A stretch of 64,000 nucleotides of DNA, taken from contig OX637394.1 of NCBI GenBank assembly GCA_951799425.1, forward strand, positions 38,023,001 to 38,087,000, read 5' to 3'. Under the pieces are notes generated by a model. The model ran no database searches. It saw nothing but the letters and a program-made list of their open reading frames with translations, and was not told the origin of the DNA. How positions within the stretch are numbered: the first letter of the stretch is position 1; every line of letters begins with the position of its first letter. This document shows, one piece after another, positions 2 through 64,000 of this stretch. Origin of the DNA: Ilex aquifolium (taxonomy: Eukaryota > Streptophyta > Magnoliopsida > Aquifoliales > Aquifoliaceae). The translations under genes and the position numbers were made by a program.

Positions 2-2671
2 CAAATGCAAAGAAGACTAAACCCATATCTAAAAGAAGTCGTTCGCAATGAAATACTCAAACTATTAGATGCAAAAATCATCTATCGTATATCTGACAGC
101 AAATGGGTTAGTCCTACACAAGTCGTTCCAAAGAAATCAGGAATCACTGTAATACAAAATAAGGAAAATGAATTAGTCCCAATGCGTACAGTCACAGGCT
201 GGCGAGTATGTATTGATTACAGAAAATTAAACTCTCTTACTAGGAAAGATCATTTTCCATTACCATTCTTAGATCAAGTCTTAGAAAGAATAGCTGGGCA
301 TGCATACTATTGCTTTTTGGATGGATATTCAGGCTACAACCAAATTGAAATTGCAATAGATGATCAAGAAAAAACCACTTTTACATGTCCCTTTGGTACC
401 TTTGCATATAAACGAATGCCATTCGGACTTTGTAATGCACCAGCTACCTTCCAACGTTGCATGTTGAGTATATTCAGTGATATGGTAGAAAGATATTTAG
501 AAGTCTTCATGGACGATTTTTCAGTATATGGAAATTCATTTCAACTCTGTCTAGAAAATCTAGAAAAAGTTCTCATTCGATGTGAGGAAACAAATCTTGT
601 CCTAAACTGGGAAAAATGTCATTTTATGGTAACACAAGGTATTGTTTTAGGCCACATAGTCTCCAAAAAAGGAATCGAAGTAGATAAGTAAAAAATCGAT
701 CTAATAGCAAATCTGCCTCCACCAAAAACAGTAAAAGACATTCGCTCATTTTTAGGCCATGCAGGATTCTACAGAAGATTTATAAAAAATTTTAGTTCAA
801 TCTCTAAGCCTATATGCAATCTATTATGTCAAGATACATCATTTGAATGGAGTGAGACATGTCAATCCGCATTTAACAAACTAAAAGACATGCTTATTTC
901 TGCACTTATTATGCAATCTCCTGATTGGTCCTTACCCTTTGAAATAATGTGTGACGCAAGTGACTATGCAGTAGGAGCTGTATTAGGGCAAAGAAAAGAC
1001 AAGAAACCATACGTGATCTATTATGCAAGCAAAACCTTAAATGATACCCAAATAAACTATTCAACCACAGAAAAAGAACTACTTGCAGTCGTATTTGCTT
1101 TAGATAAATTTCGTTCATATCTGGTGGGGTCGTCTATTGTGGTATTTACAGATCATGTAGCCCTAAAATATCTACTCACAAAGAAAGACACTAAACCACG
1201 TCTCCTACGATGGATACTATTACTCCAAGAATTTGATCTTATAATCAAAGATAAAAAGGGAGTAGAAAACGTAGTAGCAGATCACTTGTCAAGATTAAAC
1301 TATGAAATAAAAGAAGAACCAATTCCAATCAAAGAAACATTTCCAGACGAACAACTTTTCGCAATAGCAGAAGTACCATGGTATGCGGATATAGCTAACT
1401 ATCTAGCTACTGGAGCTATACCTCCTAATTACACTAAATCTGATACAAACAAATTCCTAAGGGAAGTACGTAATTTTTTCTGGGATGACCCTTATTTGTT
1501 TAAATATTGTAAAGATCAAATAATAAGGCGTTGTATACCTAATCATGAAATAAATCAAGTAATTCAGTTCTGCCACTCTGAAGCATGCGGAGGCCATTTC
1601 GCTTCAAGAAAAACCGCTGCAAAAATCATGCAGTGTGGATTTTATTGGCCAACACTTTTTAAAGATACACATATCTTTTGTTTAAACTGTGACAGATGTC
1701 AAAGAATGGGAAATATTTCAAAAAGAAACATGATGCCTCTAAACCCTATTTTAATTATTGAAATTTTTGATTGCTGGGGCATCGATTTTATGGGTCCGTT
1801 CCCCCCATCGTTTGGCTATCTATATATTCTGGTCGCAGTTGACTATGTCTCTAAATGGATCGAGGCAGTTTCTTGTCGAAATAATGATCATAAAACAGTG
1901 ATCAGATTTTTAAAAGAAAATATTCTATCTAGATTTGGAATTCCTCGCACCATTATAAGCGACGGTGGATTACATTTTTGCAATAAAATTTTTGAAAACC
2001 TCATGAAAAAATATTCCATTTCACACAAAATATCCACCCCATACCATCCGCAGACCAGTGGCCAAGCTGAATTAGCCAATAGAGAAATAAAATACATCTT
2101 AGAAAAGACAGTAAACCCAGATCGTAAAGATTGGTCTTTACGATTAACTGATGCACTGTGGGCATACCGTACTGCATATAAAACTATTTTAGGAATGTCT
2201 CCTTATAGACTAGTGTACGGAAAACCATGTCATCTCCCTGTAGAATTGGAACATCGAGCATATTGGGCAATTAAAACAATGAATTTTGATTTAGACAAGG
2301 CTGGAATAGCTCGAAAATTGCAAATCAATGAATTAGAAGAATTACGAAACGAAGCATATGAAAACACTAAAATCGCAAAATCAAGAACAAAAATTTTCCA
2401 TGATAAAAATATCATGCGAAAATCTTTCGAACCATCTCAAAAAGTTTTATTATACAATGCAAAGCTTCGTTTATTTCCAGGTAAATTAAGATCAAGATGG
2501 AGAGGTCCCTACATCGTCAAACAAGTATTTGACTACGGAGCAGTTGAAATCGAAAATCCAGTAACTGGAACTATCTTTAAAGTAAACGGTCAAAGACTTA
2601 AACCGTATTATGAAACTTTTACTCAAAACATCACTGATGTACACCTTTCTGATCCTGTCTATTTACTTTGA
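2..2671 (+). pseudogene. Athila pol: RT-RNase H-integrase, one in-frame stop
   Basis: One reading frame is open from the left edge to 2671 except for a TAA at 689-691, between the RT and the connection domain. RT has the FMDD catalytic motif at 506-517. RNase H begins near 944 (CDAS) and includes a TTEKE segment and a TDH segment. Integrase follows with an HHCC zinc module (about 1568-1700), the DDE residues (GIDFMG near 1783, SDGG near 1958, the Glu of GQAELANRE near 2066) and a C-terminal GPYIV segment typical of Ty3/gypsy integrases. Family assignment rests on Athila-like motifs such as MQRRLNP and the strong resemblance to the - strand pol at 59194-64000. The product would act in retroelement particles and at integration. 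The stop makes it probably non-functional. Confidence 0.9.
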
Positions 2672-2817
2672 AAATTTGCACTGAATCTTACTAATTCATT
2701 GTAATTTCTTTGACAGAGGAAACCGCTTGAGTAACAGCCAGAATCCTACTTGGTAAAGCAAGGGTCTACCATCAATGTTGATGATTACTGTGCTTTCATC
2801 ACAACTAGTAATTAGTT

Positions 2818-2831
2818 TAAATTGGGGAGGT
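2818..2831 (+). other. Internal polypurine-tract-like sequence after pol
   Basis: A G-rich purine run (TTGGGGAGG) preceded by A/T lies about 150 bp after the pol stop. The second Athila element has a similar run at 58771-58786 after its own pol. Both differ from the terminal polypurine tract that abuts each 3' LTR. It could be an internal plus-strand priming site or a relic; function is inferred only from position and composition. Confidence 0.4.
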
Positions 2832-2924
2832 ATGAATGTGAATTTACTTTTTAATTTTAAAATAACTCTTCTATTTTAAACAAGATAATCTAAATATATA
2901 TATATATATAAAAATATATATTTT

Positions 2925-2960
2925 GTCTTTGTGACTGGCAGACGTTAAAGAACCGGATAG
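2925..2960 (+). promoter_or_regulatory. Conserved box upstream of the Cys-rich ORF, 3'-splice-site-like
   Basis: GTCTTTGTGACTGGCAG followed by ACGTTAAAGAACC lies 64 nt before the ATG at 3005. The same box precedes both other copies of the ORF (56883-56919 and 58576-58613 on -). Its T-rich start, GTGAC and terminal CAG resemble a branch point plus 3' splice site. It may allow expression from a spliced subgenomic RNA; that is inference. Confidence 0.45.
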
Positions 2961-3004
2961 AGAGTCTTTTTATCTAATATTTAACTAAACCTAGAATATA
3001 CAGT

Positions 3005-3415
3005 ATGGATATAAAACTATTTTGGTTAAGTTTAATTATATTGCGTCATCTTCCAAAAGACGTTCACGCACTGATCATGCAAAAAGCCAGAAGAGTCAGA
3101 AATCTTGAAATATTTGAAAGCCAACCAAAACCACTATGCGGAAAAAGTCTGTATGCTAAACACAGACGAGCAAAGCGTCTCGGTGGTTGTGTCAGATGCG
3201 GTCGAACAGAACATTTAAGACAATACAATCCATGTGCGGAACCGATTTCAGGTCGAGCGTCCGATCGACTACGGTGGATTAGGTATGGGCAGAGTAAGGA
3301 CTACCCTGAGGCGCCATCCTACTCCACCCCGATGTTAACCAAGTACGTTCGAAATGAAGTTCGTCGAGTCACTGGTAATAATGATCCAGACAGTTCTGAC
3401 TCCGACACAATATAA
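3005..3415 (+). CDS. Cys-rich nucleic-acid-binding-like protein, betaflexivirus NABP-type (copy 1)
   Basis: A complete 136-codon ORF lies between pol and the env-like gene of Athila element 1. In order it has a hydrophobic N-terminal segment (residues 1-16), a DVHALIMQKAR stretch, a basic block around AKHRRAKRLGG (residues 51-61), a finger C-x2-C-x4-H-x6-C (about 62-77), an ISGRASDRLRWI box and a Ser/Asp-rich acidic tail. This architecture matches, from family knowledge, the small Cys-rich proteins of Betaflexiviridae (Pfam Viral_NABP type), which bind nucleic acid and in some genera suppress RNA silencing. Two further copies occur on the - strand (56454-56858, 58145-58555), gap-free over most of their length. 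The start at 3005 matches the M-D-x-x-LFW start shared by all three. It is open although pol and env-like here carry stops. A host-derived zinc-knuckle gene is the alternative. Confidence 0.72.
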   Translation: MDIKLFWLSLIILRHLPKDVHALIMQKARRVRNLEIFESQPKPLCGKSLYAKHRRAKRLGGCVRCGRTEHLRQYNPCAEPISGRASDRLRWIRYGQSKDYPEAPSYSTPMLTKYVRNEVRRVTGNNDPDSSDSDTI

Positions 3416-4876
3416 TCAACAGAATTTTGGAAGAAGTATATATGTATATACATAACTATAATGTGAAACCCCGGAAAATTTAAACTTTGACGAACAAGGG
3501 CAATAGGTGAATTGCCACTTCGGTACTAGTTGAAAAACTGAATTTTTCTAGATCTCGGATGACGAAACGGATTTCACCGTTGGATTCGTCTCGCGAAATC
3601 TAGTTACCCTATAAAATTTCATCGAATTCCGAGACAGTCGGATTTTTCGCGTTTTACGAGGCGGTCGAGTCTCGGGTGACCCCAAAAACGAAAATTTTGT
3701 TAAAATATGGAGAATTTGAAAATAATTTAAATAAATTTCATATAAAATATTTTGAACTTGAATCGGGTCGAAATTTAGTCGTTTCGGGATTAAAACGTAC
3801 CCGGAACTAAAAGAGACGTGTGGCCAATTGTGGGCCAAGTATTCTAAAATTATAAATAGGGGTTAAATGGCTGGAAAATCAGATTTTTTCACCCAACTCT
3901 CAGCTGGTCTCACACGTTAGAAAAGAGAGAGAGAGAAAGAGAGAAAACAAGGGTTTCTCAAGACTTTCTTCCGCCGATTCTTCGACTTTCGTCGCTCGGA
4001 TTCCGTCGCGCTAGAAGGGAGAGTTGATCTACGTGACTAGGGCTACGCGTGGACACCAAGAACGACGGTTTTCACCGAAGGTATGAAAACCGAAATTTTG
4101 GAGAAGCTTGGAATGGGCTTGGGTTGGCTTCTTGGAGTTTCCTACGGGGATTCCTCACGCTACAAGAGGTAGGGGTTCTCCTCCCTTGGCATATTCTAGT
4201 CCTTGATGTATGTATATGTGTATATGTATATAAACATATGTGTATATATGCATGGTTCAAAAGGTTGAAATAAGGAAGTGTGATTAATGATGCCTCTTAA
4301 TGAATTCTAGCTTGAATTTGGTGTCTATAAGTTACATGTGATTAGGTTGTAACTTGGGAAAATTTGAGGCATGTTGGGTGATTTATAACTTGTGCCTACA
4401 AGGTATTTGACAAAATGCTTGTGTGAATGTATGTGATTATTGTAATATACATGTATGTCTAGGGTTGTAGAAATGGAAGTTCTTGTGTGATCACTTGGAA
4501 CTTGAGATGGTGGAGGCATGCTATATGTTATATGGTGCCTTGAAGGTATTTGATTAACTGCCTAGAATGATGATAATTGATGTGTGAGGGCTATACCTTG
4601 TGATTACATGACATTATGCTTATATGGCGTTTGATGAAATGCCTTAAAGGATTAAAGTTGTTATTTGGGTGAAAGTGGAATAACATATTTGGGTGGTGTG
4701 ACTCACAATTAAAATTGTATGTTTTTAAGGAAATGAAGAATTGATTATAAGAATAACTTAAGCTAAATTTTAGCTTACAATTGATACATGGAAGTTACTT
4801 GTATTCCTTTGTGGAAGTGAATGAAATAGTGGACTGGTTTATAGCCTATTTCGGGGCTGCTATATAGCTTAATTTG

Positions 4877-4991
4877 GGGACTGTTTTGTGGATAATTAAT
4901 GGACTGTTTTGTGGTTAATTAGTGGAATGTTTTGTGGCTAATTAGTGGACTGTTTTGTGGCTAATTAGTGGACTGTTTTTATGGTTGTTTG
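4877..4991 (+). repeat. Tandem repeat, about 23-bp unit, 4-5 copies
   Basis: The unit GGACTGTTTTGTGG plus TTAATTAGT is repeated with small changes inside the solo LTR. No function is evident. Confidence 0.8.
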
Positions 4992-7317
4992 GGGACTGAA
5001 ATTGTGGTTGCCTTGAGGCTGAAATTGCGGACTGTTTTGAGTTAAACTTATGGGCTGTTTTGGGCTTATTTCATGCTATAATGTTTATGTGGAAGGGGTT
5101 GATGTAGGAGACTTTGTATAGGACTCTTACCCATGGTTGGTGACTTGATTAAATGGGGCTTTTACCTATTGTTGGTGACATGATTAAATGGATGTTGAAA
5201 GTGGATACAATATATTCTATCTTGAAATGGGGGTGTAGAAATTACTTAGAGTAATTTCTTGTGTTACACGATGACGTATAGGATTCTTCCTATTTGGGAT
5301 TATTCCTCACCTTAGTTGCTTATCAAAAAGGGTGATATGGAATGGGTAGGTGTATATATATATATGCATCACTTGCCTATTGTTATTGTTGGGTGAAATG
5401 GGTATTGAAAATGGGTAGAGTAAACTTTACCTTGGATTGGGTATGTAGAGAAATACCTAATGTGATTCTTGATCCATAGGATGAGAATTGGGCATTAAAC
5501 CACTAGCGTAGATCATGTGTGGGGAAATGGGTACCAAATGTGCTAAGCAAAGCTTGTACAAAATGGGTATAGAAATTACTCATTGGGTAAATTTCATAAA
5601 GGAACTTGAAGTGTAAAAAAATGGATATGGGAAAATTGGTAAAGTGAATGTCTAAATGGAATTGACATTTAGAGGTGGTTGCTTTATAATTCTATTGGGA
5701 GATTATGATATGTGGATATTAAGGAATGGATAGAATAAATTCTATCTTGGTATAATGGTGTAGAAATCACTAGATATGATTTCTTGAGCTTGATGATGAA
5801 ATTGAGTACATTATATGATTACATGTTTTGCGTGCTTTGAAGGTGTTGGTTATATGCCTTGGTGAAAATGAAATATGTATTGATGAGTCTAGTATGTTAA
5901 TTGCATGCTTATGTGATAACATGCTTGAAAATGGTTATTGGATGAAATGTTGATATATGCATGCTTGTTATGTGTTGGCAAGGTGTTAAATTATGATATT
6001 TATATGCTTATGATATGAAGTAAATTGGATATGTCGATTTATCCTGACATTGTTCATATGACACTCATACATATCGAACATGTGGTTAGGGTGCAATTGG
6101 TACATTACATTGCATCCTCATGGGTACATCACATTCATGGTTATAAGACATGGGTGTGTGTGTGTGTGAATTGGCATCGCATTCATGGGTCATGGACATG
6201 AGTGTGGGTGTGTGCATGTGTCGTGGATCAAACACCAAATATTGGTGGTTGATATGTGGACTCGGGAAAAAGTGGATCGACTATCCTCTTTGAGTTGCAC
6301 GGTTGCATTGCATAAGGAAAACTTGTGTTGGGTAAAGCAAGAAGGGGCATGGCGACTTCCTTGGGTGAGAAACCCTAAACCACTTGGTTCAGTCACTTTC
6401 CGGAGGTGAAATTCCAGAAAAGTGACATGGCCCACGGAGCCGGCGGTTGTGATACCAAAATCCGTTGCCCAAAGAAAACACAAGGGATTTTTGTTATAAA
6501 AACACCCATTCAATGGGTTGAATCCAAAGATGATCGGATTATTTTATAAAACGAATGATTTCCTATTCAAAACGACCATTGGATGTTTTTCTCCGTCGAA
6601 GGCGGATCATTACACTTTGGCATTACATTGTGTTGTGTGAGTCGGTGAGGACTCGGGTTGAAATGCATGAGTGAGTGTCACCTCATTCCATGGCATGGCA
6701 TTGTTGCATTCCAACATAGAATGCATATTAGCATGAAATGCTAGATTATATGTTTTATGTGATTATTACATGAGCATGAGCATCTAGGGGGAGAGTAGCC
6801 TTTGTAGGATTTTCTCTACTGGGCGTTGGCTCACCCTATACGGGAAACATTTCAGGTGCGGACTATACGCCGGTGGGAGACCCTCATACGGGACCCCAAA
6901 AATGAAGAAAAGCCGACTTGTGGCTTTTATGGTTTAACTTGTAAAGTTTTCGTATAAATTCCATTTTAATGTGTAAATATATGGAATTGTATTAAATGGA
7001 CTTCCATGGACTTTTTATAATGTAGAAAACATGAATATATATGTTTGGGTGACCTTGGAAAGGTTTGAAATGAATTGGAAATGAAAAATTATTGAAATGG
7101 ACAAAATCTGCCTTTGACTATCGGTAGTCAACAGGTAGTCGTGAACCAGAAGCGGGGCCTTAAGGGTGAAAGGGGGGCCGACATGTGGCCTCTAACCAAG
7201 ACTATTTTGTAAACTTATGTTAAAACTACATTTTGGCATGTAATGTATGTAGAAGATTTAAAGTTCTGAACTTGTGTTATATATGTTTAATGCATAAACT
7301 TGTGATATTAGAGTATG

Positions 7318-7411
7318 GATAAATGGACCCGGTGTGGTCAATGTTTTCTTATAAATGGACTCGGTGTGGTCAATGTTTTCTTATAAATGGACCCGGTGTG
7401 GCCAAAGATTT
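7318..7411 (+). repeat. Tandem repeat, 32-bp unit, 3 copies
   Basis: The unit ATAAATGGACCCGGTGTGG plus TCAATGTTTTCTT is repeated near the 3' end of the solo LTR. A single related unit is present at 28702-28722 in the other LTR of this family. Confidence 0.8.
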
Positions 7412-7904
7412 TATAAGAGACCTTGGATAGGTTATGTGTTTGCTTGGTGCACAGGGTGTGTTTGGGTAGAGCTCCCCATACAAAGGAGGCTCTGCCCGAC
7501 TTTTGCTAAATCATGGATCCCGATGAATGGGGCATGACGTGTGATATTGAGTTACACTGTATCCATGAGTATTCCGCGGGTTGATGGGTGATCAACGGAC
7601 CCCCGGATTTTGGGGTGTCACATATAATATATCTAGTTATAAAAATAAACCATGTATATATTTGTATAATGTACATATTTTTATAAATGTACGTGTTTGT
7701 ATAAACGTACATGTTTTTTTTAAATATATATAAGTATAAGAATAAGTAGTTAAAAATGTACATAAATGTAAATAACTATAATTTAAGTAGGCAATTCCGT
7801 AAATAAGCAATAACAAATAAAAAATTAAAAAACCCATTTTTTGATCACAAAAAAAAGAGTGGTGAGCAAAAGTTTTTTTTAGAATGAATATCTATGAACA
7901 TTTT

Positions 7905-8251: not shown

Positions 8252-9379
8252 ATGGCTTCAAGACAAAGAGGAAGAAGATCTTCAAGAAAGGCACAAAGAG
8301 ATCAACCTCAAGCACCTCCACAGCAACCAGAACAAGAGAATATCTTCAACCAGGTGATATTTGAAAATGTTGAACAACAAGTTTGGTATGATACGAAATT
8401 TTCTATGAAAACTGTTATTGTTGAATGACCAGTTGTGTTTGAAGATTTCGATGCCATAAGAATATGGGAAATTCTTGCTGTTAGAGGATGGTTAGATTAT
8501 GTTAAATTATCTGTCCCTGCATATGATTGCTTGATCCGTGAATTCTATAGTAATGCTCAAATACTGGAAGAAAAACATATACGTGCATTCGTACGGGGTA
8601 GAATTTTTCATGTTACTCCGGCTATTATAGCCAATTTTTTTCAACCCATGCGAAGAGAAGAAAACCCACAGTATCCATACACTGAACTTACATTACCAAA
8701 TTTGGATATTGTAGGAAGAGAAGTTACCGGTAATCCCGAATTTGGTTGGGGTAGACCAAATAAGTATATTAAGCAGGGTGATTTGACTGACACATACCGC
8801 ATCCTGAATTTAATCATAGTAAATAGCCTGTTACCTCGAGCCCAGAAAAATCAAATATATACTGAGCAAGCTTACTTTTTATATGCCTTTGGAATGGGAC
8901 ATACCATAGACTTGCCGAATCTGATCATGGACCAGATGATCCTGACTATAGGAGATAAGAAGCCTTCACTTCCATATGCTATGCTAGTATCTCAATTATG
9001 CAGAAACAATGATGTGATCATTGATCCGCTATGGAAGACTGTGGATCATTATGGGCCATTAGATAAAACTTCATTGAGAAAAAGCCATGGAGCTCAGCCA
9101 GAAATACAACCAGATGCTCAACCAGCAGCTCAACAGGAAGTACCACCCGAACCACAAGAACAACCAATCCAACCTCCTGAAGCATTCATTCCACCCGAAC
9201 AGCAGATACCAGAAGAGCAACCATACATCCCAGTGGATGACAGGACAGACAGACAGATTCTGCTAGGATTGGAAAACACTATCACTCAAATGAGCCGAAG
9301 AATGGAAGACTATGAAAGAAACCAAACAGAAATGTTGAAGCTACTGAAACAGCATTTTGGAGGAGGACCATCCACCTAG
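8252..9379 (+). pseudogene. Athila env-like ORF (putative plant transposon protein type), one stop
   Basis: The frame opens at ATG 8252 (MASRQRGRRSSRK), has a TGA at 8426-8428, then stays open to 9379, about 375 codons. The body has motifs such as VREFYSN-like LIREFYSNAQ and VRGR-like segments, matching from memory the conserved domain annotated as putative plant transposon protein or Athila env-like. A Pro/Gln-rich stretch (about 9100-9240) and a C-terminal coiled-coil-like segment follow. Position between pol and the 3' LTR fits an Athila env-like gene. No signal peptide or clear transmembrane helix is visible, so an envelope role is nominal. The second Athila element shows no such ORF, only extra Cys-rich ORFs. 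The stop makes it a probable pseudogene. Confidence 0.7.
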
Positions 9380-11149: not shown

Positions 11150-11418
11150 TGTGATTAACCTAATTAGTATGTAAATTAAAAAAAATCAAAAAACTCGAAT
11201 TAGTATAATGAACGCACTAAAAATAAGTACTTAGAGTGAATTAGGGTTTGTGCGGGAATGATACTAGTTGTAACATTTTATTTAAAAGTTGCAGGACAAA
11301 TGCTGAATAAACACAAGATGCAGGAGCAATGTCAAGAGAATGGAACATTGGAGGCCAAAGTGTAAATAACCATACGTGAAGAGTCAGCATGCATGCAAGT
11401 GGATTTTCCAGCAAAGCA

Positions 11419-11513
11419 CCACCGTCCAGACGGTGGGACTGCCGTCCGGACGGTCACCCTTGTCAGACACAAGTTGATCTCCTTGCCCACTTGCCTTCCC
11501 ACGCCTATAAAAA
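11419..11513 (+). promoter_or_regulatory. LTR promoter: 36-nt palindromic module plus TATA box
   Basis: Two near-palindromes (CCACCGTCCAGACGGTGG and GCCGTCCGGACGG) at 11419-11454 are followed by CCTATAAAAAGG (TATA at 11506). Transcription would start around 11535. The module is the exact reverse complement of 7990-8025. Confidence 0.6.
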
Positions 11514-11986
11514 GGCTTCTCCACTTCAGCTTCAGAAGGCCGGACCAGAAGGAGAAATTAAGAAAGGAACTGAGAGAGATACGAGAGGAGTCTGAGAGTT
11601 CTGAAGCTTGTCCAAGCAAGTCAGAAGAGAGAAAAAGAGAGAAAGAAAAGAGAAAGCACATTCCGGTCCGTGTTATATTTCAGTCCTACGTCCTGTACTG
11701 TTCTATTTTCATTGTATCTTTCCATTCGGATAGTTGAACTGCTGCCACTTTTTTATCTTAATCAAGCATAAGAGTGGTTGTGTTTCAATCGTTCCCTGCG
11801 AAAGACATTTAAATTCCGCACTTTACTTTCTGTTATAATGACAACTGCTAGCTCTCCTTGCTTGTCTATAGCAATGGAGCGTGAGTAGTTCCGTATATCC
11901 TCCGGTTCGAGGGGAACACATGTATAATATTGATCTGTTTATGGAATTGCTGATGTTTTATTTATACGTTTATTATATATATGAGA

Positions 11987-12167
11987 CGGGCCAGCTAGAA
12001 TGACCCCGGCGTTCCTACCGGTATGGTTAACCCTCCACCGGAATGCTGAGGAAGTTCCACTGACGCCTGGTATTACTATATATAATAATATTGCCTGCTA
12101 GAATAACCCCGGTGATCCTATCGGTATGGCTAGTCCTCCACCGGAACGCTGAGGAAATTCTACTGTC
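11987..12167 (+). repeat. Diverged direct duplication inside the LTR
   Basis: Two units of about 75 bp, each with CCGGT...CCTACCGGTATGG-like text and CCTCCACCGGAA, lie at about 11990-12062 and 12095-12167. Weaker related units continue to about 12330. Confidence 0.6.
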
Positions 12168-12883
12168 AATATATATATTACAAGATAACCTATTGAATAA
12201 TTCAAGTATTCTGTTGGAATGACTTCACTTTCTGGGTGACATATCTAAATACAGTTAGTCTAAGAAGCGGCTGTATTATGATTAACTACCACCGGTTGAC
12301 CTGACAAGTTACCGGAAGATAGTCTATACCACCTGCGGATTCTGCTTGAATTAATCAATTGGACATCTATAACCAGTGTAGCCTAAGGAGCAGCTGAGTT
12401 ATAATATATTACTACCACAATGAGCTTAAGAAGCTATTGTGTTCTTATTTGCATACATCAGACCTGCCGATTGACTTACCAGTAAAATGGAAGTTAATTG
12501 ATGTAAGGTAGCAATTCCATAATACGACTAATCTAACGCATGTGGGATCCTTGAACTGAAGGATATCTTTTATATTTCTGTCATTAATCTACTTTACTTA
12601 CGCATTTCATTATTGTTGCAATTTAATTCCGTCTTTTACTTAAGTTAAGTTACTCGAACAGACTAAGCTCACACCACAAGCTATCAAACATCAAACTACC
12701 CTAAACAACCTTTTTATGGATTTATTTTTATTTTATTGTTTTTATTTTATCTTTAACCTCTAATTACTAAAACTCTCTGTGGGATCGATACTTGGACTTA
12801 AAACCGAGAAAACTACAATTTGACCACTTATACTTGGGTGTAATATAATAATATAATTCAGACACACTAAAAAGTGCGAATCA

Positions 12884-13617
12884 GAGAATACCACCGTATC
12901 CAATGTCGGAGGCATCAGTTTGAATAATTTTAAAAGAATCAACTGAAGGAATACCAAGACAAGGCAAAGTTTTAATGTATTTTTTGACTTGTTGGATAAT
13001 AGAAGTATGTTCAGAGGTCCAAGGAGAAGGGTTTCCTTTGAGTCTGTCATACAGAGGTTTGACGGTTGGTCTGAGATTCTGATAGAAGTCAGAAACATAA
13101 TTCACAGAACCTAAAAATCTTTGAAGTTGAGTCTTATCAAGAATTTCATCAGGAAATTTATCAGCAAACTGAATAGCTCGACTGATGGGAACAATGGTGG
13201 ATTGTCGGATATCATATCCAAGAAATCTAACAGAAGTTTGGAACAATTTTATTTTTCTGGCAGAGATGACAAGACCACTGTGTCTAACAGTCTCTACAAA
13301 TGCATTTAAGTGTTTCCAATGTTCTTCTATAAACCTGCTAAAGATGAGAATGTCATCAATATAGGTTATAGAACAGTAACTTAAATGGTTAAAAATTTCA
13401 TTGATAATATTCTGAAATTCACTAGGTGCATTTTTTAACCCAAAAGGTACAACATTCCATTCATAATGTCCGAATGGAGTTACAAATGCAGTCTTGTACC
13501 TATCTTCAGGAGATATCTGTATTTGCCAGTATCCACTTTTCAAATCAAATTTTGAAAATATAACAGAATTTTTTAATCTTTTAATTAAATTTTGTTTGTT
13601 TGGAATAGGATACCTGA
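12884..13617 (-). pseudogene. Pararetrovirus RT and partial RNase H (fragment A)
   Basis: Reading right to left, RT begins just after a junction with intergenic sequence near 13617 and carries FDLKSGYWQI, the catalytic YIDD (13352-13363) and FLGYDI. It then enters RNase H, ending at QTDASDIGYGG near 12890, where the Athila LTR interrupts. The frame is open, but its apparent N-terminus (13618-13705) is intergenic viral DNA read by chance, so RT has lost its start. In the virus the domain copies pregenomic RNA. It is the only RT core left in the cluster; fragment B stops just before it. Confidence 0.85.
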
Positions 13618-13701
13618 TCTTATCCTTACATGTGACAGACAGCTTTTCCCTCTTGTGTGAGAAGAGAGTAGTGAGTGAAGCTGTCACAAGTAAAAACAAC
13701 A

Positions 13702-14152
13702 TCACGGGGTGGTGATGTCTGCTTCATCAAGGTCATCATATCCTTCATATGGATCTTGGGCATCCTGGTATGGGTCCAGGGCTGGAGTAACAGATCCGGC
13801 TGAAGAGCTGGGAGATGATGAACTTTGGCTGGCAGCTTGCTGGATCAAATCCTGAGCCATTTTGAGAAGCTCCGCAGCTGACGGCTTAATTGGCTTACTG
13901 GAGTCCTTAGATGAGGACTTCTTCGGCTTCACTTTGGGGGGTCCTGTAGACTCTTTAGGTTTTTCTTCTGGGGAAACCCTTAGAGTAGGCAAGGCCTTCT
14001 TAGCTGGAGTAGAAGGATGTAAGGCAGTATGGACCACTACTGGGGTCGGCACCTTGACAGGAAAGTCCTTCTGAACATCAGCAATTATGGCATCATATTT
14101 AAATCTGGGCCACCATTTGACAGAGAACTGCCTGGCGACATAGTTAGAAATT
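13702..14152 (-). pseudogene. Pararetrovirus ORF2 C-terminal part (fragment A)
   Basis: It encodes the Lys/Ser/Pro-rich end of ORF2 (KPKKSSSKDSSKPIKPSAAE, then a Gln/Ser stretch and the acidic end DEADITTP). Matching copies are at 21288-21578 and 25629-25919. It is joined head-to-head with fragment B at 14152/14153. ORF2 has no known function that I can assign. Confidence 0.8.
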
Positions 14153-14570
14153 GACAGAAGATACTTCCCCAGTTTCCTATGTTCTGTAGGTTTATTCTTT
14201 CTTTGTCAATTTATTTGTTTAAATTTCATATATTCATCATCTTCATCCTTCCGCCTATTTTTGGTATCAGAGCCATTTGACGACCTGGATAGCCAGTTAT
14301 GAAATTATATTTGAACACTATTATTCGTGTTAAATCTCTATTTCTTTCAATTCCATTAAATCAGTTATAAGTTTTTTCTTAACCTGATCACCTAGCCTTT
14401 GTCCTAATCCAAGAGTGTGTAAGCCTCTTTGTTTTCCCGTTTGTAAGTCCAAGTGTGGCAGTCTAGGGAATTTTAGGCAAGAAACTGAGGATTTTGTATG
14501 TTAGGGGGTATGCATCATGTGGTTAAAACTTATTTTTGATTTATAAAATTGAAGAAATTTTGATTTAATA
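14153..14570 (+). promoter_or_regulatory. Pararetrovirus leader end and tRNA-Met primer-binding site (fragment B)
   Basis: TGGTATCAGAGCC at 14262-14274 matches the plant initiator tRNA-Met 3' end used by caulimovirids as minus-strand primer. The preceding 110 bp recur at 19033-19142, so the ORF1 fragment is terminally redundant. The 300 bp between PBS and ORF1 contain no credible ORF. Confidence 0.8.
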
Positions 14571-19019: not shown

Positions 19020-19142
19020 CTGTCACAGTAAGGACAGAAGATACTCCCCCAGTTTCCTATGTTCTGTGGGTTTATTCTTTCTTTGTCAATTTATTTGTTT
19101 AAATTTCATATATTCATCATCTTCATCCTTCCGCCTATTTTT
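19001..19142 (+). repeat. Second copy of pararetrovirus leader segment, with end of a leader ORF
   Basis: It nearly repeats 14153-14262. The frame 19001-19102 encodes 33 residues ending SYVLWVYSFFVNLFV and is homologous to the C-terminal part of the 54-codon ORF at 57093-57257 (-). The ORF1 fragment is therefore flanked by direct leader repeats, as expected for a terminally redundant or tandemly integrated molecule. Confidence 0.7.

Positions 19143-19144
<2 letters not shown>

Positions 19145-19175
<31 letters not shown>
19145..19175. repeat. (TA)n microsatellite at a viral junction
   Basis: About 15 TA units join two viral fragments in opposite orientation. The virus text stops at TTTTTGGTA on the left and at the complement of AAAAATGG on the right. 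Confidence 0.9.
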
Positions 19176-19176
<1 letters not shown>

Positions 19177-19177
<1 letters not shown>

Positions 19178-20597: not shown

Positions 20598-20646
20598 CTA
20601 ATTATAAACCATTAAAAACCCGGGGAAGGGTGATAATAAGCTAATT

Positions 20647-22314: not shown

Positions 22315-22611
22315 ATTTGACGACCTGGATAGCCAGTTATGAAATTATATTTGAACACTCTTATTCATTTTATTTCAGTATTTCTTTCAATTCCACTAAA
22401 TCAGTTATAAGTTTTTTCTTAACCTGATCACCTAGCCTTTGTCTAGCCCAAGAGTGTGTAAGCCTCTTTTGTTTTCCCGTGTGTAAGTCCAGGTGTGGCA
22501 GTCTAGGGAAATTTTAGGCAAGAAACTGAGGGTTTTGTATGTTATGGGGTATGCATCATGTGGTTAAAACTTATTTTTGATTTATAAAATTGAAGAAATC
22601 TTGATTTAACA

Positions 22612-52100: not shown

Positions 52101-52713
52101 TCGACCCAAGAAAACCAAGCCATGCCAATCGAGGAAAGCAATTCGTGGATGGATCCTATCATGTCCTTCCTACAAGACGGAACGCTCCCTAACGACCTGA
52201 AGGATGCATCGAAGCTGAGGGCCAGAGCAGCAAGATTCACGCTAGTCCAAGGTAACCTATACAAAAGAGGCTTTTATTTTCCATTGATGAAGTGTGTATC
52301 TGGAATGGAGGCAGATTATATCCTAAGAGAAATCCACGAAGGCATGTGCAGGAACCATATTGACACAAAGACCTTGGCAAGCAAGGCACTACGGCAAGGT
52401 TACTTTTTACCAACTATGTCCAAGGATGCCAAGGAAATAGTGAAGAGATGCCAAACCGGCCAAATCTACGGCAACCAGCCACACTGCCCGCTTGAGCTAC
52501 TCACCCCCGTGGTCAGCCCTTGGCCCTTTCAACAGTGGGGATTGGATATCTTGGGGCCCTTACCATTTGGGGTCGGACAATGCAAATTCATCGTGATCGC
52601 GGTGGATTACTTCACCAAGTGGGCTGAAGTCGAGCCTCTAGTTAAGATCACGGCGCAGAAGGTCAAGAACTTTGTCTGGAAGTCTATAATATGTCGTTTC
52701 GATGTCCCTGACT
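49151..52713 (+). pseudogene. Tat protease-RT-RNase H-aRNase H-integrase (truncated)
   Basis: A zinc motif CEFHKDTGHETNDC (near 49280) precedes the protease (VDNGSSTDI near 49705). A TAG at 50276-50278 and a frameshift before 50410 interrupt the link to RT. RT has a one-base frameshift near 50740 and the YIDD site near 50806. RNase H is followed by a second, plant/archaeal-type RNase H (LYVDGASNAQGS near 51660, then NEAEY and NDSQLV), the hallmark of the Tat lineage. Integrase begins with a damaged zinc module (CQTGQ instead of two cysteines) and GLDILGPLP, then is cut off by the Athila LTR after CRFDVPD. Confidence 0.88.
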
Positions 52714-53614
52714 TGATCCGAAATGTGTACACCCAAGTGCAGGCGGTCAAGTTGTAGTAATAATCTGGTTTGAGTCCAGAGTCGAATCCTCAGGGAACTA
52801 TGGTTGGTGTTCTTTGAAGTAAATAGTGAGAAAGACTTGTAATTGGAAATATTATGATTTTGAAGTTGTGGGAAGTTTTGGATAGAATGTAAGATTCTTT
52901 CCAATGGGTATTTTGCTAGACAAAATATAAGATGATTAAATGTAACAAACACTCTTTGGTTCGGGAATCAGAATATGTAGTTGATTATCCGGTGCATTAT
53001 GTTTATGCTTTATAACTCAATTAACTCCCGTGTCAACGGCAAATTAATCGGAAGATAGGAATGAAGTGCAATAATGGTGGACATTGAAAGTTTGTCATGA
53101 AGAGTTAGTTAGGGTACTTGCCTTGAATCAATGGATCTTTCCATGTAGGAGTCATCCATTTATCATAGAAAGATCCGTTGATTATACAAAGTACCTTTAC
53201 TTTGCTAGGTGCATTCAATCACCCAAAAATCAAGTGGAGTATAGAACATTTAAGCATAAAGGTGATACACAAACATAATGTCCGGATTAATCTTTTACAT
53301 ATCTATCATCCCTTCCCAAAGAGTGAATGAGGACTACTCACCCTTCATAGCTATGGTAAAGCTAGAATGATGAATGGTACTCATCCCCAAAAGGTGTTAC
53401 AAAGTAAAATGCTCAAGCACTAAAAGTGAAATGCTTTAAAGTAAAATAGCTAAACAAGGAGCCGATCTTCGACAAAGAATGAGTGAATCACGTTCCACCC
53501 TTCACGGCTTTGGTAAAGCTCTAGAAAAGTGGAAGAGTTTCACTCCTCTAAGGGGAAGAAGGAAGCTCCAACAATGGAAGTAAAAGAAAACAATACTTAA
53601 ATTAAAAGAAAGCA

Positions 53615-53940
53615 ATAAATACTTGGTGTTTAATCCACAACCAAGAGATGATAATACATAAAAGAAAACAACAACTTCTTGGTGTTTAATTCACAACCAA
53701 GATCTAATAAAAAGAAAACAACAACTTCTTGGTGTTTAATCCACAACCAAGATATAATAAAAACATAAAAGAAAACAATAACTTCTTGGTGTTTAATTCA
53801 CAACCAAGATCTAAAACATAAAAGAAAACAATAACTTCTTGGTGTTTAATTCACAACCAAGATCTAAAACATAAAAGAAAACAATAACTTCTTGGTGTTT
53901 AATTCACAACCAAGATCTAATAAAAAGAAAACAATAACTC
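53615..53940 (-). repeat. Tandem repeat, about 50-bp unit, 6 copies
   Basis: The unit (on +) includes AACTTCTTGGTGTTTAATTC and ACAACCAAGATCTAA, then an A-rich link. On - it lies downstream of the TATA box, in the probable R-U5 region. Confidence 0.85.
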
Positions 53941-54097
53941 AAGAAAGTAAATAAAGCAATAATACTTGAAAGATGATTCAAGAAAAAGATTCAAGACCTT
54001 TGGAGTGTTTTCCACTAGGAAGAAATGTTCTTTACAAGAAAAATGAAACAAGAGAAGGATGCCCATTACAAGCCCCCAAGGGGGGTATTTATAGGCA

Positions 54098-54306
54098 TCC
54101 AAATTACAAATATCCTAAAAGATATTTATCCTAAAATATATTTAATTACAAATATCCTAAAAGATATTTATCCTAAAAGATATTTAATTACAAATATCCT
54201 AAAAGATATTTATCCTAAAAGATATTTAATTACAAATATCCTAAAAGATATTTAATTACAAATATCCTAAAAGATATTTATCCTAAAAGATATTTAATTA
54301 CAAATA
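54098..54306 (-). repeat. Tandem repeat, about 42-bp unit, 5 copies, next to the LTR TATA box
   Basis: The unit (on +) is AATTACAAATATCCTAAAAG plus ATATTTATCC, with the AAAGATATTT half-unit sometimes single. On - the array lies immediately upstream of the TATA box, an enhancer-like position. Confidence 0.85.
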
Positions 54307-54575
54307 TCAAGAAGATCTTGATTTACACTTTGATCTCCCTTTGTTTTGAGCTTTAATAATTTACACCCTATGCTTTGATAAGTTGCTCTCCATGCTTTGA
54401 TAATTGGCTCCCGTCGTTTTGACGCATAAAAACCTGAAAAGAACAACATTCAATGCATTATCCTTAATTCACACATTAACCCTAATTAGATTTATTTTGA
54501 CTAGTTTAACTTTATTTAATTACACAATTGACCTTTTAATTTAATTACATTTTGCATTAATTAGGGTTAATCACA

Positions 54576-56858: not shown

Positions 56859-56988
56859 GCTTGCTAAGACTAAAGACATTCTATCTGGTTCTTTAACGTC
56901 TGCCAGTCACAAAGACAGTTGAAGCTGCATCCGATGTAATCATGAAATACAGGTACAAATACTAAAAAAAACGCGATCCAAAAAAAAT

Positions 56989-57375: not shown

Positions 57376-57732
57376 TCTGTTCATCTGCCGAAACCTACAA
57401 ACAAAATACAACAATTACTCAACTCAAGGAATATCTGGGTTTCTCTGGAAACTCCTCATCCTAAGTGTGAGAACACAAAGAGCACCCAGGTACACATACA
57501 AACATATAAGACAAATTATTAAACAAAAGACTGGATCGTCGGCGTATATGGTCATGGATTTACAGGGGGTGAGTTGTTTTTACAGAGAACAGAAAGAACG
57601 ACGACGAAGAAGAAGAGAAGAAAAAGAAAGAGAAGAAGATAAGGGAAAGAGAAAAGGGGGGAACCAACACCGGTGATGGTGGAAGAAAAAGAAAAAGGTG
57701 GAAGGCCTAATAAAGGCATTCCTCAGATTTTT

Positions 57733-58555: not shown

Positions 58556-58770
58556 GATTGATACTCTATGACCCATTATCTGGTTTTTTTACGTCTTCCA
58601 GTCACAAAGACGATCAAAACTGACCCACAGATATTATCATTTATACAAGGTACATAATATGAACAGATACAACAATAAAAACAAAAAAAATTTACAGAAA
58701 ATTTTACGGGTTCAACCTGCGCAGATCAACTACTGTAAACTGCAGATCAACTATTGTAAACTGTAGATCT

Positions 58771-58786: not shown

Positions 58787-59193
58787 CTGAACATTGTCCC
58801 CAATGTTTCGAGTTTTTCGGTTTGTAGAGCTTGAATACGCAGTTAACTGTGGAGATCTGTTCAATCGCCGATGACCTATACCAAAAAAAAAAAGAGATTA
58901 AGCATCTTTGGGGTGGTCTGGGTTTTCATTGGGACAAAAACCCTTGATCATCAGTGCGGCCCGAAGAAGAACAGCCATAAGTAAATAATACAAACAAATG
59001 TAGATCATGAGAAGGAGGATAGGGTCATCGAAAAATGCAGACATGGTACTATTATGGGTTGGATCGTGGTACAGAAGACCAGATGCAGTGGAGAAGAAGA
59101 AGAAAAGAGAAGAAGCAGAAGAAGAAAAAGAAAAGAAAAGAGTAAAGGTGTGGTGAGGAAAAGAAAAAAAAGAAAAAAAAAGCGATGGGAGCC

Positions 59194-62100
59194 TTATAAA
59201 GGCAGTCCATCGTGTCGGGTGTCTGACTGACCCGACCCTTTTTTGTGTCGGCAAGCGTAATCTCCGGAGTGATTTCCGGAGATACTTTCTGGATCCATAA
59301 AAAAAATGGTCTCCACATTTTGGACAAAATTCTCCACAAAGGGTTTTAATCGCTGACCATTGACGGTAAAAATGTTACCGTTTGATGGGTTCTCCACTTC
59401 CACTGCCCCATGTTCAAATACCTTTTTAACAATGTATGGTCCAGTCCATCTTGATTTCAACTTACCAGGAAATAGGCGAAGTCTCGAATTGAAAAGTAGA
59501 ACTTTTTGATCAGGTTCAAAAGATTTTCGCACTATGTTCTTGTCATGAAAAATTTTCATCCTGGTTTTTGCAATCTTAGCATTTTCATATGCTTCATTTC
59601 TCAATTCCTCCAATTCATTAATCTGAAGCTTCCGTGACAGTCCAGCCTTGTCTAAGTCAAAATTCATTGCTTTAATAGCCCAGTATGCCCTATGTTCCAA
59701 TTCCACAGGCAAGTGACATGGCTTTCCATAGACTAATCGATAGGGAGACATGCCCAAAATTGTTTTAAAAGCAGTTCGGTATGCCCAGAGCGCATCAGTT
59801 AGTCTTAATGACCAATCTTTGCGATCTGGGTTCACCGTTTTTTCCAAAATTAATTTGATCTCCCGATTAGCTAACTCAGCTTGTCCACTGGTCTGTGGAT
59901 GATAAGGGGTTGCAATTTTGTGAAAAATCAAGTATTTTTTCATTAAATTCCAGAAGGGACGATTGCAAAAATGAGAACCCCCATCACTTATAATGGATTT
60001 TGGAATTCCAAACCGAGATAAAATATTTTCTTTTAAAAACTTGATCACCGTTTGATGATCATTATTTCGGCATGGAATTGCTTCAACCCATTTGGATACA
60101 TAGTCTACGGCTACTAAAATGTATAGATAGCCAAAGGAGGGGGGAAATGGTCCCATAAAATCGATACCCCAACAGTCAAAAATTTCGATCACCAAAATTG
60201 GGTTTAAGGGCATCATGTTTCTTTTTGAAATGTTTCCCAACCTTTGACATCTATCGCAAGTTACGCAAAAAGCATGGACATCTTGGAAAAGTGTGGGCCA
60301 GTAAAATCCACACTGCAAGATTTTTGCAGCGGTTTTTCGAGATGAAAAATGACCACCGCATGCTTCTGAATGACAAAATGTTATTACCTGTCTACTTTCC
60401 TGAGCGGGGATGCAACGTCTTATGATCTGATCCTTACAGTACTTGAATACGTAGGGATCTTCCCAAAAGAAATTGCGGACCTCCCTCAGAAACTTCTTTT
60501 TGTCCATGGGAGTGAAAAATGGAGGAAGTGTTCCGGTAGCAAGGAAATTAGCAATATCAGCGTACCATGGGGTTTCATCAATCCTGAATAGTTGTTCATC
60601 GGGGAATTTTTCATTGATTGGCAGTCCATCCTCATGAAATTCATAAGTTAATCTTGACATATGATCTGCCACCACATTTTCCACACCCTTTTTGTCCTTA
60701 ATGACTAAATCAAATTCTTGGAGCAAAAGGATCCATCTCAAGAGCCTTGGTTTGGCATCTTTTTTTGTAAGCAAAAATTTCAGTGCTGCATGGTCAGTAA
60801 ATACAGTAACAGAAGAACCAACCAGATAAGATCGAAATTTTTCCAATGCAAATACTACAGCAAGTAATTCCTTTTCAGTTGTTGAGTAATTCATTTGGGC
60901 ATCATTTAAAGTTTTACTTGCATAGTAAATCACATGTGGCTTCTTATCTTTTCTTTGTCCCAAAACAGCACCTACAGCATAGTCACTAGCATCACACATC
61001 AATTCAAAGGGTAGAGTCCAGTCAGGAGGTTGCATTATTGGGGCAGAAATTAACATGCCTTTGAGTTTGTCAAAGGATTTTTGGCACGCTTCATTCCAGT
61101 CAAAAATGACATCCTGACTCAAAAGATGACACATAGGTTTTGCTATGGTGCTGAAGTCTTTTATGAACCTTCTGTAGAATCCTGCATGACCTAAGAATGA
61201 TCGAACATCCTTTACAACCCTAGGAGCAGGAAGATTCCTTATCAAATCAATTTTTGCTTTATCAACTTTCATGCCTTCAGACGACACAATGTGACCCAAG
61301 ACAATGCCTTGATTCACCATGAAATGACATTTCTCCCAGTTAAGCACCAGATTTGCCTCTTTGCATCTCATCAAAACTTTTTCTAGGTTAGCTAGACACA
61401 AATCAAATGAGTCACCATATACCGAGAAATCATCCATGAAAATTTCCAAAAAAATTTCGACCATGTCACTGAACAAGCTCAGCATACATCTTTGAAATGT
61501 TGCAGGAGCGTTACAAAGTCCGAATGGCATCCTTTTGAATGCAAAGGTGCCAAATGGACATGTGAATGTGGTCTTTTCTTGGTCATTCAGAGCTATCTCA
61601 ATTTGATTGTATCCGGAATACCCATCCAGGAAACAGTAAAATTCATGGCCTGCTATTCTCTCGAGGACTTGGTCAAGGAAGGGAAGAGGAAAATGGTCTT
61701 TTCTAGTCACCAGATTGAGTTTTCGATAGTCAATGCACATTCGCCATCCTGTGACGACTCGTGTTGGCACGAGTTCATTTGCATCATTTTTGACTACTGT
61801 GACTCCAGATTTCTTTGGTACAACTTGGGTTGGACTAACCCATTTGCTATCGGAGATAGGAAAAATTATCCCTGCATCCAGGAGTTTGAGCACTTCCAGT
61901 CTCACAACCTCTTTCATGTGAGGATTCAATCGTCGCTGCATTTGACGAGAGGGTTTTGAGTCCTCTTCAAGGTATATGGCATGATTACAAATTAACGGGC
62001 TTATACCTTTCAAATCAGCGATGGTCCACCCAATGGTGCTTTTGTGACTTTTAAGAACTTCAATTAATTGAGCTTCTTGCAAGTCTGTGATTTTTGAAGA

Positions 62101-64000
62101 AATTACCACTGGGTAAGATTTATCCTCACCTAAAAATGCATACTTGAGATCAGATGGGAGCGGTTTCAGTTCAGGCTTTGGTGGCCTGTCACTTGAAGAT
62201 AGTGGTTTTGTACCACTTGATGAAATTTCTTCAAATTTAGGAGCCCATGTCCCCACATTGAAGGTAGGACACTCAATGGAGTTTTGTTCCAGAGAGTCAG
62301 ATGAGTCAGATTTTGACAAAGTTGATTCACTAAGATCCTCACAGAATGAGTCATTCAGATGTGCTTGTATTAATGACTCAATGAAATTTATTTCTCCTAC
62401 CTCCTCGTACTCTCTTGGGTGTTTTGCAATGTCAAAGACGTTCATTTCGAGAGTCATATCCCCAAAAGTCAATTTCATAATACCATTCCTGCAATTGATT
62501 AGTGCATTGGAGGTTGCTAGAAAAGGTCGACCAAGAATGACAGGAATTGGAGTTTCTGAATGAACTTCTGGATGAGTATCTAGAACAATGAAGTCTACAG
62601 GGAAGACAAAATTATCCACTTGAACAAGTACATCTTCAACAATACCCCTAGGAATTTTTACAGATCTATCTGCCAATTGGAGTGTGGTGCAAGTGGGTTT
62701 CAGTTCACCTAAACCCAACTGCTGGTAGACAGAGAAAGGAAGCAAGTTGACACTAGCTCCAAGGTCTAACAATGCTTGCTCAATTTTGAAATTTCCAATG
62801 ACACATGACACAGTGGGACACCCTGGATCTTCGCACTTTGAAGGGATTTTGTGTTGAAGTAGGGCACTGGCTTGCTCTGTGAGGAAGGCTCTTTTTTGAA
62901 CATTTTGGCTTCTTTTGACTGTGCACAAGTCTTTTAGAAACTTGGCATAAGCTGGAACCTGTTGGATTGCATCCAGAAGTGGGATGTTGATTTTTACTTG
63001 CTTGAAAAGCTCGTAAATTTCAGACTGATTGTTTGCTTTCTGTATGCTCTTGAGTCTATGAGGGAAAGGAGCAGGAATAGAACACGAGGGTTCTTCTTCC
63101 CTTGATGGCTCTGGTTCTTGTTCAATCATGGGATCACAGTCATTTTTTTTTTCAAGTTCTGGCTCACTTAATGGGTTGGCTGGAATTGAGACTGGTTTTG
63201 GGTCTGGAATCAGCATGTTTCTGATGGACTTGTCAATCTTTTTGCCACTTCTCAATGTGGTGACAGTTTTGGCTTGGTCTTGTGGAGTTTCCATAGTTGA
63301 TGGATTTCCCACCTGAAATTGGCCTTGTGGAGGCTTTGGTTGGGCAGGAAATTTTCCCTTCTCATGTGTGCTCATGGACTGGGTCAGCTTTTGAATGTGG
63401 CCTTTGAGATCCTCAAAAGATTGTGTGGTCTGGGCCTTGAAATCAATAAAAGCCTGAGTAGAACTATTGTTATAGCTCATTTGGGTTTGCATGAATTGAT
63501 TCAATGTATCTTCAAGGTTCCTTTTGTGTGGTGGTTGATATGGAGGATATTGTGGAGGTCCTTGAGGTGGTTGTTGTGGACTTTGTTGCTGATTCATGGG
63601 GGTTGGTTGTGTGTTTCTCCAACTGAAATTTGGGTGGTTCCGCCACCCTGGATTGTATGTTTCAGAGTATGGGTTGGAGTAAGGCTTGTTGAAATTGGAA
63701 ATGGCATTTGTTTGTTCCAACAAAACTTCTTTGAATGCCGGAATGGTCGGGCATTCCCCAGTAGGATGCCCTGTTAGTGCACAAATCCCACACACTTGTT
63801 CTGTGGGAGGGACAACATCAACTTGATGGACCTTTTTCATCTCTAAAGCTTCAAGCTTTCGAGACAAAGTGGACATTTTTGCTCTAAGATCATCATCTTC
63901 TCTCAAGACATACTTACCCCCTTGGAAAGTAGGTGGTTTGGCTTCTACAGTGGTAGGAGATGCTGAGTCCCACATTTGAGAACTGTCAGATATGGTATCA
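59194..64000 (-). CDS. Athila gag-pol polyprotein (5' end outside window), apparently intact
   Basis: The frame is open from the right edge (the first visible Met is at 63975, but codons before it are open too) to TGA/TAA at 59194, about 1600 codons. In order: gag end with a CCHC knuckle [14 protein letters not shown]; a Pro/Gln-rich linker; aspartic protease with DLGAS (near 62770) as in other Athila proteases; RT from about 61945 (MQRRLNP) with FMDD near 61437; RNase H with CDAS, TTEKE and TDHAAL; integrase with an HHCC module (about 60375-60225), GIDFMG, SDGGSHF and GQAELANRE; and a WTGPYIV end. No frameshift or stop was found. It shares most residues with the pol at 2-2671 but is clearly diverged. 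The element may be autonomous if its 5' part is also intact. Confidence 0.9.

Follow-up and report, generated by a model that had tools for sequence, protein, structure and literature searches.

Three NABP genes downstream of pol in two LTR retrotransposons

The 64,000-nucleotide stretch of Ilex aquifolium DNA analysed here, hereafter the window, contains large parts of two long terminal repeat (LTR) retrotransposons, elements 1 and 2, which carry small open reading frames (ORFs) after pol. The products of these ORFs match the nucleic acid-binding protein (NABP) families of flexuous plant RNA viruses, and are named P0001 (element 1), P0002 (copy b of element 2) and P0003 (copy a of element 2):

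3005..3415, plus strand: NABP ORF of element 1, 136 aa; PF05515 44.9 bits, PF01623 28.2 bits
58145..58576, minus strand: element 2 copy a of the NABP ORF, encoding 143 aa, or 136 aa if translation begins at the shared MD (58555); PF05515 42.9 bits
56454..56879, minus strand: element 2 copy b of the NABP ORF, encoding 141 aa, or 134 aa if translation begins at the shared MD (56858); PF05515 48.7 bits

The ORF at 3005-3415 (plus strand) runs through 136 codons with no interruption and lies, as had been proposed from the sequence alone (the original prediction), between pol (890-2671) and an env-like ORF with a Transposase_32 domain (8252-9379). This arrangement holds only partly for element 2, where the NABP genes also follow pol but tblastn with the env-like protein of element 1 retrieved no counterpart anywhere in the window; its order is thus pol, NABP, NABP, 3' LTR. 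The two further open copies of the original prediction are real and lie on the minus strand, although the ends assigned to them, 58555 and 56858, are internal ATGs at the shared MD. These are probably the true starts of copies a and b, because the conserved 5' block described below overlaps the upstream ATGs. In a full-length alignment of all three products, P0002 and P0003 are, respectively, 63% and 57% identical to P0001, and all the motifs predicted as common to the three copies were found: an FW-SL-LR N-terminus, DVH-x2-IM-x-KAR, a basic block, C-x2-C-x4-H-x6-C, ISGR-x2-DRL and an acidic tail. The five alternative frames of each copy contain 3 to 13 stops.

Homology to the viral NABP families

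All three window proteins scored above the Pfam gathering cut-offs of both Viral_NABP (PF05515, 23 bits) and Carla_C4 (PF01623, 20.9 bits). E-values for PF05515 were 1.7e-11 (P0001), 1.3e-12 (P0002) and 7.3e-11 (P0003), and those for PF01623 were 1.9e-6, 5.4e-5 and 7.3e-6 (28.2, 23.5 and 26.3 bits), respectively; the next Pfam families appeared at E ~0.1, far under cut-off. These three proteins and 14 relatives form group A, whose 17 sequences all match PF05515 at E≤1e-3, with 16 of the 17 also matching PF01623. Six of ten further proteins pass PF05515, and P0022, P0028, P0030 and P0032 fail it; P0028 is a true virus protein, with 17.9 bits for PF05515 (below cut-off) and 26.6 for Carla_C4 (which it passes).

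Profile searches led to named viruses. The first retrieved 14 proteins at E≤10, and the second (plant sequences only), with the group A profile as query against a database of 5.8 billion proteins, retrieved 25, including two entries for the NABP of Peach mosaic virus, at E=7.1e-7 and 1.7e-6. The third, whose query already contained two Peach mosaic virus rows, gave 423 relatives at E≤0.01; the 120 that were listed are mostly unnamed metagenome proteins, and include the NABPs of Cherry mottle leaf virus and Mexico trichovirus as well as four named plant proteins, from Orobanche hederae, O. gracilis, Populus alba and P. x canadensis. Among these metagenomic proteins, group C (P0023-P0027 and P0033-P0035) is mostly of 129–133 aa and ca. 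40% identical to the element 1 protein.

With hhalign, group A aligned nearly end to end with four trichovirus proteins, at 98.6% probability and 31% identity across 119 columns, and the basic block and the Cys/His finger fell in register with the named viral members. Probabilities were 97.2% for group B, a set of longer relatives, against the trichovirus proteins, and 97.9% for group A against group B. The predicted Viral_NABP layout is thus borne out by profile matches above gathering and by an end-to-end alignment; scores of 42.9–48.7 bits against a cut-off of 23 are the opposite of the missing match that was to speak against it. Common ancestry of the window ORFs with the flexivirus NABP or cysteine-rich protein (CRP) genes is, on this sequence evidence, well supported. 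The ORFs are homologues inside a domain family and not viral genes, because they reside in genomic LTR retrotransposons and not in flexivirus RNA.

NABP copies in the host genome and in an independent contig

We searched 800 Mb of the host genome. With P0002 as query, the best 150 of 4093 loose first-look candidates were scored, the window copy among them; all 150 showed 98–100% amino acid identity and no stops; 149 of the matches were full-length, and the remaining one covered 140 of 141 residues. To lessen bias, non-coding DNA was used to draw 30 copies of element 2, out of 40 scored among 3318 candidates; these are still the best DNA matches. Of the 30, 24 are intact, three have indels or are partial and three others are not open. 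A group B query also gave 150 matches out of 150 scored (from 2957 candidates), at E-values of 3.7e-8 to 5.5e-6. Every one of 20 loci from this search was group A-like, and they represent diverged subfamilies. The full frame of 134–136 aa is present in 14 of them, and 1.5-kb flanks contained the pol C-terminus in seven, the env-like gene in 14 and both in six.

Contigs from other sources were searched likewise. The group A profiles found no relative in contigs of the viral or genome collections, and neither did the group B or trichovirus profiles in those of the viral collection; a single contig of the genome collection, L001 (3330 bp), encodes one. It contains a pol ca. 73% identical to that of the window (tblastx), then a 186-aa group B NABP (P0061; PF05515 34.1 bits, above cut-off; PF01623 20.4 bits, just under 20.9) and then a polypurine tract (PPT)-like sequence. 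L001 is the one listed relative for which a retroelement context was seen. The contig is filed in a metagenome-assembled genome of Candidatus Nomurabacteria, yet carries plant retrotransposon genes, and is apparently contamination. The gene is therefore not confined to the two elements of the window that the original prediction considered: it occurs in many copies and several subfamilies in its own genome, and in L001 from another source.

Selection on the NABP gene

Ratios of non-synonymous to synonymous substitution rates (dN/dS) were calculated by the Nei-Gojobori method. For the three window copies they were 0.13–0.32; pairs that include element 1 have high or saturated dS. Eleven copies form 55 pairs, 24 of which fell in the dS range 0.1–1.2; in these, dN/dS was 0.17–0.43, and the upper limit of the 95% bootstrap interval stayed under 1 for 23 pairs. 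These pairs share copies and are non-independent, and one copy (L067) entered with 110 codons, shortened by the start rule. The proposed dN/dS comparison among copies thus gave values not near 1, and the gene, far from being restricted to two loci with neutral ratios, occurs at many loci with ratios below 1. In all, the NABP gene appears to be under purifying selection between subfamilies. Among the element 2 copies drawn by non-coding DNA, we counted 10 non-synonymous, 5 synonymous and one stop distinct changes, the latter seen in three occurrences.

A conserved block upstream of the NABP start

A block of ca. 40 nt precedes each of the three window genes:

2925..2966, plus strand: block (GTCTTTGTGACTGGCAGACGTTAAAGAACC...) upstream of the element 1 NABP start; possible 3' splice acceptor or RNA signal of another kind
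58570..58611, minus strand: block upstream of the copy a MD start
56875..56916, minus strand: block upstream of the copy b MD start

The 14-mer TTTGTGACTGGCAG occurs, with at most one mismatch, 47–97 nt ahead of the start in 15 of 15 own-genome genes (the three of the window and 12 of the 20 loci, picked for usable starts). The ca. 40 nt around it are strongly conserved, with 28 invariant columns among 11 aligned sequences, and allowing two mismatches we found only three occurrences on both strands of the window, all at NABP genes. After its pol, L001 contains a pyrimidine-rich tract ending CTGCAG; both this tract and the conserved block resemble 3' splice acceptors and may act as such. Rfam gave no match for 2680-3100, which includes the element 1 block.

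Further pyrimidine-rich tracts lie in element 2 on the minus strand, one at ~58890-58845 ending TATAG|GTCATCGGCG..., ahead of copy a, and one at ~57405-57365 ending TGTAG|GTTTCGGCAG..., ahead of copy b. Both are followed by a common GAACAGATCT, and are possible additional splice acceptors.

The elements that carry the NABP genes

Other features of the two elements are as follows:

2..691, plus strand: element 1 pol, reverse-transcriptase part, assigned from its resemblance to element 2; the interruption of the frame lies between 691 and 890
890..2671, plus strand: element 1 pol, RNase H and integrase (PF17917, PF17921, PF00665)
8252..9379, plus strand: element 1 env-like ORF, with a break in its frame at 8428; Transposase_32 (PF20167) scores 99.1 bits over 8435-9379
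11150..12883, plus strand: element 1 3' LTR, delimited by eye on the left at a PPT-like tract and TGTGATTAAC, and on the right by the end of its match to the 5' LTR
59194..63999, minus strand: element 2 gag-pol open frame, continuing beyond the window edge
58898..59044, minus strand: short ORF encoding a hydrophobic 48-aa product; follows pol and precedes NABP copy a; without Pfam match
57424..57555, minus strand: short ORF encoding a hydrophobic 43-aa product; follows NABP copy a and precedes copy b; Pfam match below cut-off only
52709..54571, minus strand: element 2 3' LTR
C4:38087871-38089748, outside the window: element 2 5' LTR

Element 2 encodes, above Pfam cut-off, a protease, a reverse transcriptase, an RNase H and an integrase zinc-binding domain, the searched stretch ending inside the integrase core; in element 1 this core is above cut-off. 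The long frame of element 2 also has a gag-like Cys/His knuckle (by eye). The order protease, reverse transcriptase, RNase H, integrase is accompanied by LTRs, a primer-binding site (PBS) and a PPT, the last two identified by eye; the PBS-like TGGCGCCGTTGCCGGGG adjoins the 5' LTR, and we take it to be an Athila-type PBS. Both elements thus appear to be Athila-type Ty3/gypsy retrotransposons, the clade name deriving from domain order, LTRs, PBS and PPT, the additional ORF (aORF) after pol in element 1 and the label given in the original prediction.

The LTR pair of element 2 shows no substitutions in 1862 aligned sites, with 17 gap columns, and the element is therefore, from this comparison, a very recent insertion; a script found no target-site duplication for it. 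The LTRs of element 1 are 99.65% identical across the 1138 bp compared. An unrelated insertion of ca. 4.16 kb (window ~3462-7622) splits element 1 between the NABP and env-like ORFs; by eye, it has TGT...ACA ends and TATAA flanking both sides, and resembles a long solo LTR. Elsewhere in the window, 13617-26867 is a repeat cluster of 89–99% identity, with direct and inverted copies, apparently of nested retroelements.

A small hydrophobic ORF precedes each NABP copy of element 2, which suggests that a two-gene unit was duplicated; none was seen ahead of NABP in element 1. We considered these ORFs as relics of TGB3, a candidate that found no Pfam match in its support. The tree described below places copy a with P0011, P0012, P0013, P0015 and P0016 (support 100/100), and P0008 and P0014 are joined to copy b at 98/97; the duplication therefore predates those sequences. 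P0016, of type a, and a shortened relative, P0022, both have a longest contig of 2941 bp and may lie on the same one.

Origin of the gene and direction of its transfer

There is practically no chance that the NABP genes are chance ORFs or repeat artefacts: nothing of weight favours this, and it is refuted by the E-values, the copy number, the dN/dS ratios and the independent contig L001. It also seems improbable that viruses and Athila each acquired the gene independently from a host zinc-finger gene. Zinc-ribbon and zinc-finger families do appear at E ~0.1 for two of the three window proteins, and a PDB search with P0002 gave only weak matches, the best to ribosomal protein eL37 (E=0.065); but the sole Pfam matches of the three proteins above cut-off are the two viral NABP families, and the match extends beyond the finger to ca. 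110 residues. The direction of transfer is a closer matter. RNA viruses recombine with host RNAs, and a flexivirus ancestor could have acquired NABP from an abundant transcript of an Athila lineage in which the gene was already old. The non-viral side is indeed large and diverse, as seen in the 423 relatives at E≤0.01 (four of the 120 listed being named proteins from Populus or Orobanche), and groups A, B and C lie far apart in the tree. We nevertheless consider this direction rather unlikely, since the Viral_NABP profile gives 42.9–48.7 bits for the window proteins and 34.1 for that of L001, but only 17.9 for a true trichovirus NABP. Such scores fit a position of Athila inside the viral diversity, albeit as a weak point.

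The tree comprises 45 of 133 proteins and is unrooted, drawn with the viruses as outgroup for grouping only. Three sets each occupy one side of a branch: the viruses with support of 100/99, group C with 99/98 and group B (182 aa, 19 rows) with 100/99. Support for group A is weak (70/5) because P0042, labelled as B, sits beside it on a very long branch. The tree has no bearing on direction; capture from a virus by Athila is no more than the likelier one. Of the original claim that an RNA-virus gene was captured before the two elements diverged, the presence of the gene before that divergence stands, and its viral source is the likelier alternative only.

A proposed role for the Athila NABP

The explanation that we favour, and regard as rather probable when taken as a whole, is that an Athila group carries an NABP of viral origin, kept by selection, which binds nucleic acids, acts against silencing or on host transcription and is produced from a spliced RNA. 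The gene most likely originated in a flexuous plant RNA virus and entered the element when reverse transcriptase switched templates, well before the present subfamilies diverged; it would later have been duplicated in the lineage of element 2 and maintained by purifying selection. Translation would probably proceed from a spliced subgenomic RNA, with the conserved upstream block as acceptor. The basic block most likely directs the activity of the protein to the nucleus or its vicinity; the C-x2-C-x4-H-x6-C finger would bind RNA or DNA, and, like the viral CRPs, the protein would dampen RNA silencing or change host transcription in favour of the element. We infer splicing, nucleic acid binding and cell location from sequence features, and the anti-silencing role by analogy: because the Athila NABP is homologous to viral CRPs, its action is most likely similar. 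CRPs of carlaviruses and mandariviruses are reported as silencing suppressors, and those of mandariviruses to contain a nuclear localization signal and a zinc finger and to boost virus accumulation (in the parts consulted of PMC12172455). Alternatively, NABP could be an accessory protein neutral to silencing, for instance a nucleocapsid-like chaperone for packaging or reverse transcription. The basic block and single Cys/His knuckle are compatible with RNA chaperoning, as is the position of the gene after pol in a retroelement, but the long frame of element 2 already has its own gag-like knuckle, and the nearest functionally tested relatives are described as silencing suppressors and pathogenicity factors (PMC12172455, same parts); we find this role doubtful.

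Several observations weigh against the favoured explanation of a captured and selected viral gene. The dN/dS of NABP exceeds that of pol (0.048, at saturated dS), so it evolves faster than pol, and pN/pS among young element 2 copies is 0.55, which does not demonstrate selection there because it rests on 15 distinct changes and a stop. Six of the 20 own-genome frames are cut short, and neither pol nor the env-like gene was found in the flanks of five of these loci (L067, L073, L076, L082 and L083). L001 lacks the conserved 5' block (7/14). The AlphaFold2 model from 17 sequences was poor (pLDDT 52.5), and therefore unfit for a fold search. The tree lacks a true root, and according to a program warning its long branches come together between group B and the viruses, which are represented by four proteins, all trichovirus-like; the transfer could have run from Athila to viruses. 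The group A profile scores nearer to the viruses (94.2) than to group B (83.1), so that more than one exchange is possible.

Comparison with known systems

The Athila genes share with Viral_NABP and Carla_C4, known from carla-, tricho-, allexi- and mandariviruses, scores above gathering, a similar length, a CGRS-x2-AK-x-RRA block followed by a C-x2-C finger, and a near end-to-end trichovirus alignment. They differ in lying inside an LTR retrotransposon with many genomic copies and, for group A, in an acidic C-terminal tail and an identity of only ca. 30% to the trichovirus proteins. Likewise, the elements have the pol domains of the Athila clade in order and, in element 1, a Transposase_32 aORF after pol, as described for sunflower Athila 14 in the sections consulted of PMC11728184, but have in addition a small NABP gene after pol, single in element 1 and double in element 2. 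Further parallels, each from the consulted part of its source, are the AlkB demethylase gained by orchid Gypsy elements (PMC9289625), another plant Gypsy with an added RNA-acting domain of a type also found in flexiviruses, although it is a different domain and in Phalaenopsis, and a nodavirus-like element of Bursaphelenchus (PMC5177903), in which RNA-virus sequence lies inside a retrotransposon, but of a nematode and from another virus.

We found no earlier report of an Athila NABP gene in the literature compared, which included parts of a 2025 Retand paper (PMC11963269); subscription journals were mostly uncovered, and a prior mention is possible. NABP is absent from the nine domains named, of 15 extra domains, in the main-text sections of a 121-genome screen (PMC9289625). 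According to the parts consulted of a 2019 survey, 21.4% of the extra ORFs of plant LTR retrotransposons match a known domain, and only those of at least 250 codons were taken (PMC6317226); given this minimum, the NABP ORF may have been overlooked for its small size. A 2020 review, again as far as consulted, left open the origin of antisense extra ORFs, one reason being their lack of similarity to viruses (PMC7264820). The NABP gene is a sense extra ORF with a clear viral family, a conserved position, very many copies and signs of selection.

Whether a transposable element turns a suppressor of the RNA-virus type on the silencing of its host, and whether retrotransposons and RNA viruses trade genes, can be tested directly in this system. 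Tentatively, and as a possibility that we would place below an even chance, Athila elements and flexuous RNA viruses may share an anti-silencing gene that was exchanged at least once, and perhaps repeatedly. If this were true, plant retrotransposons would permanently harbour a family of viral suppressors, and might even be where it arose.
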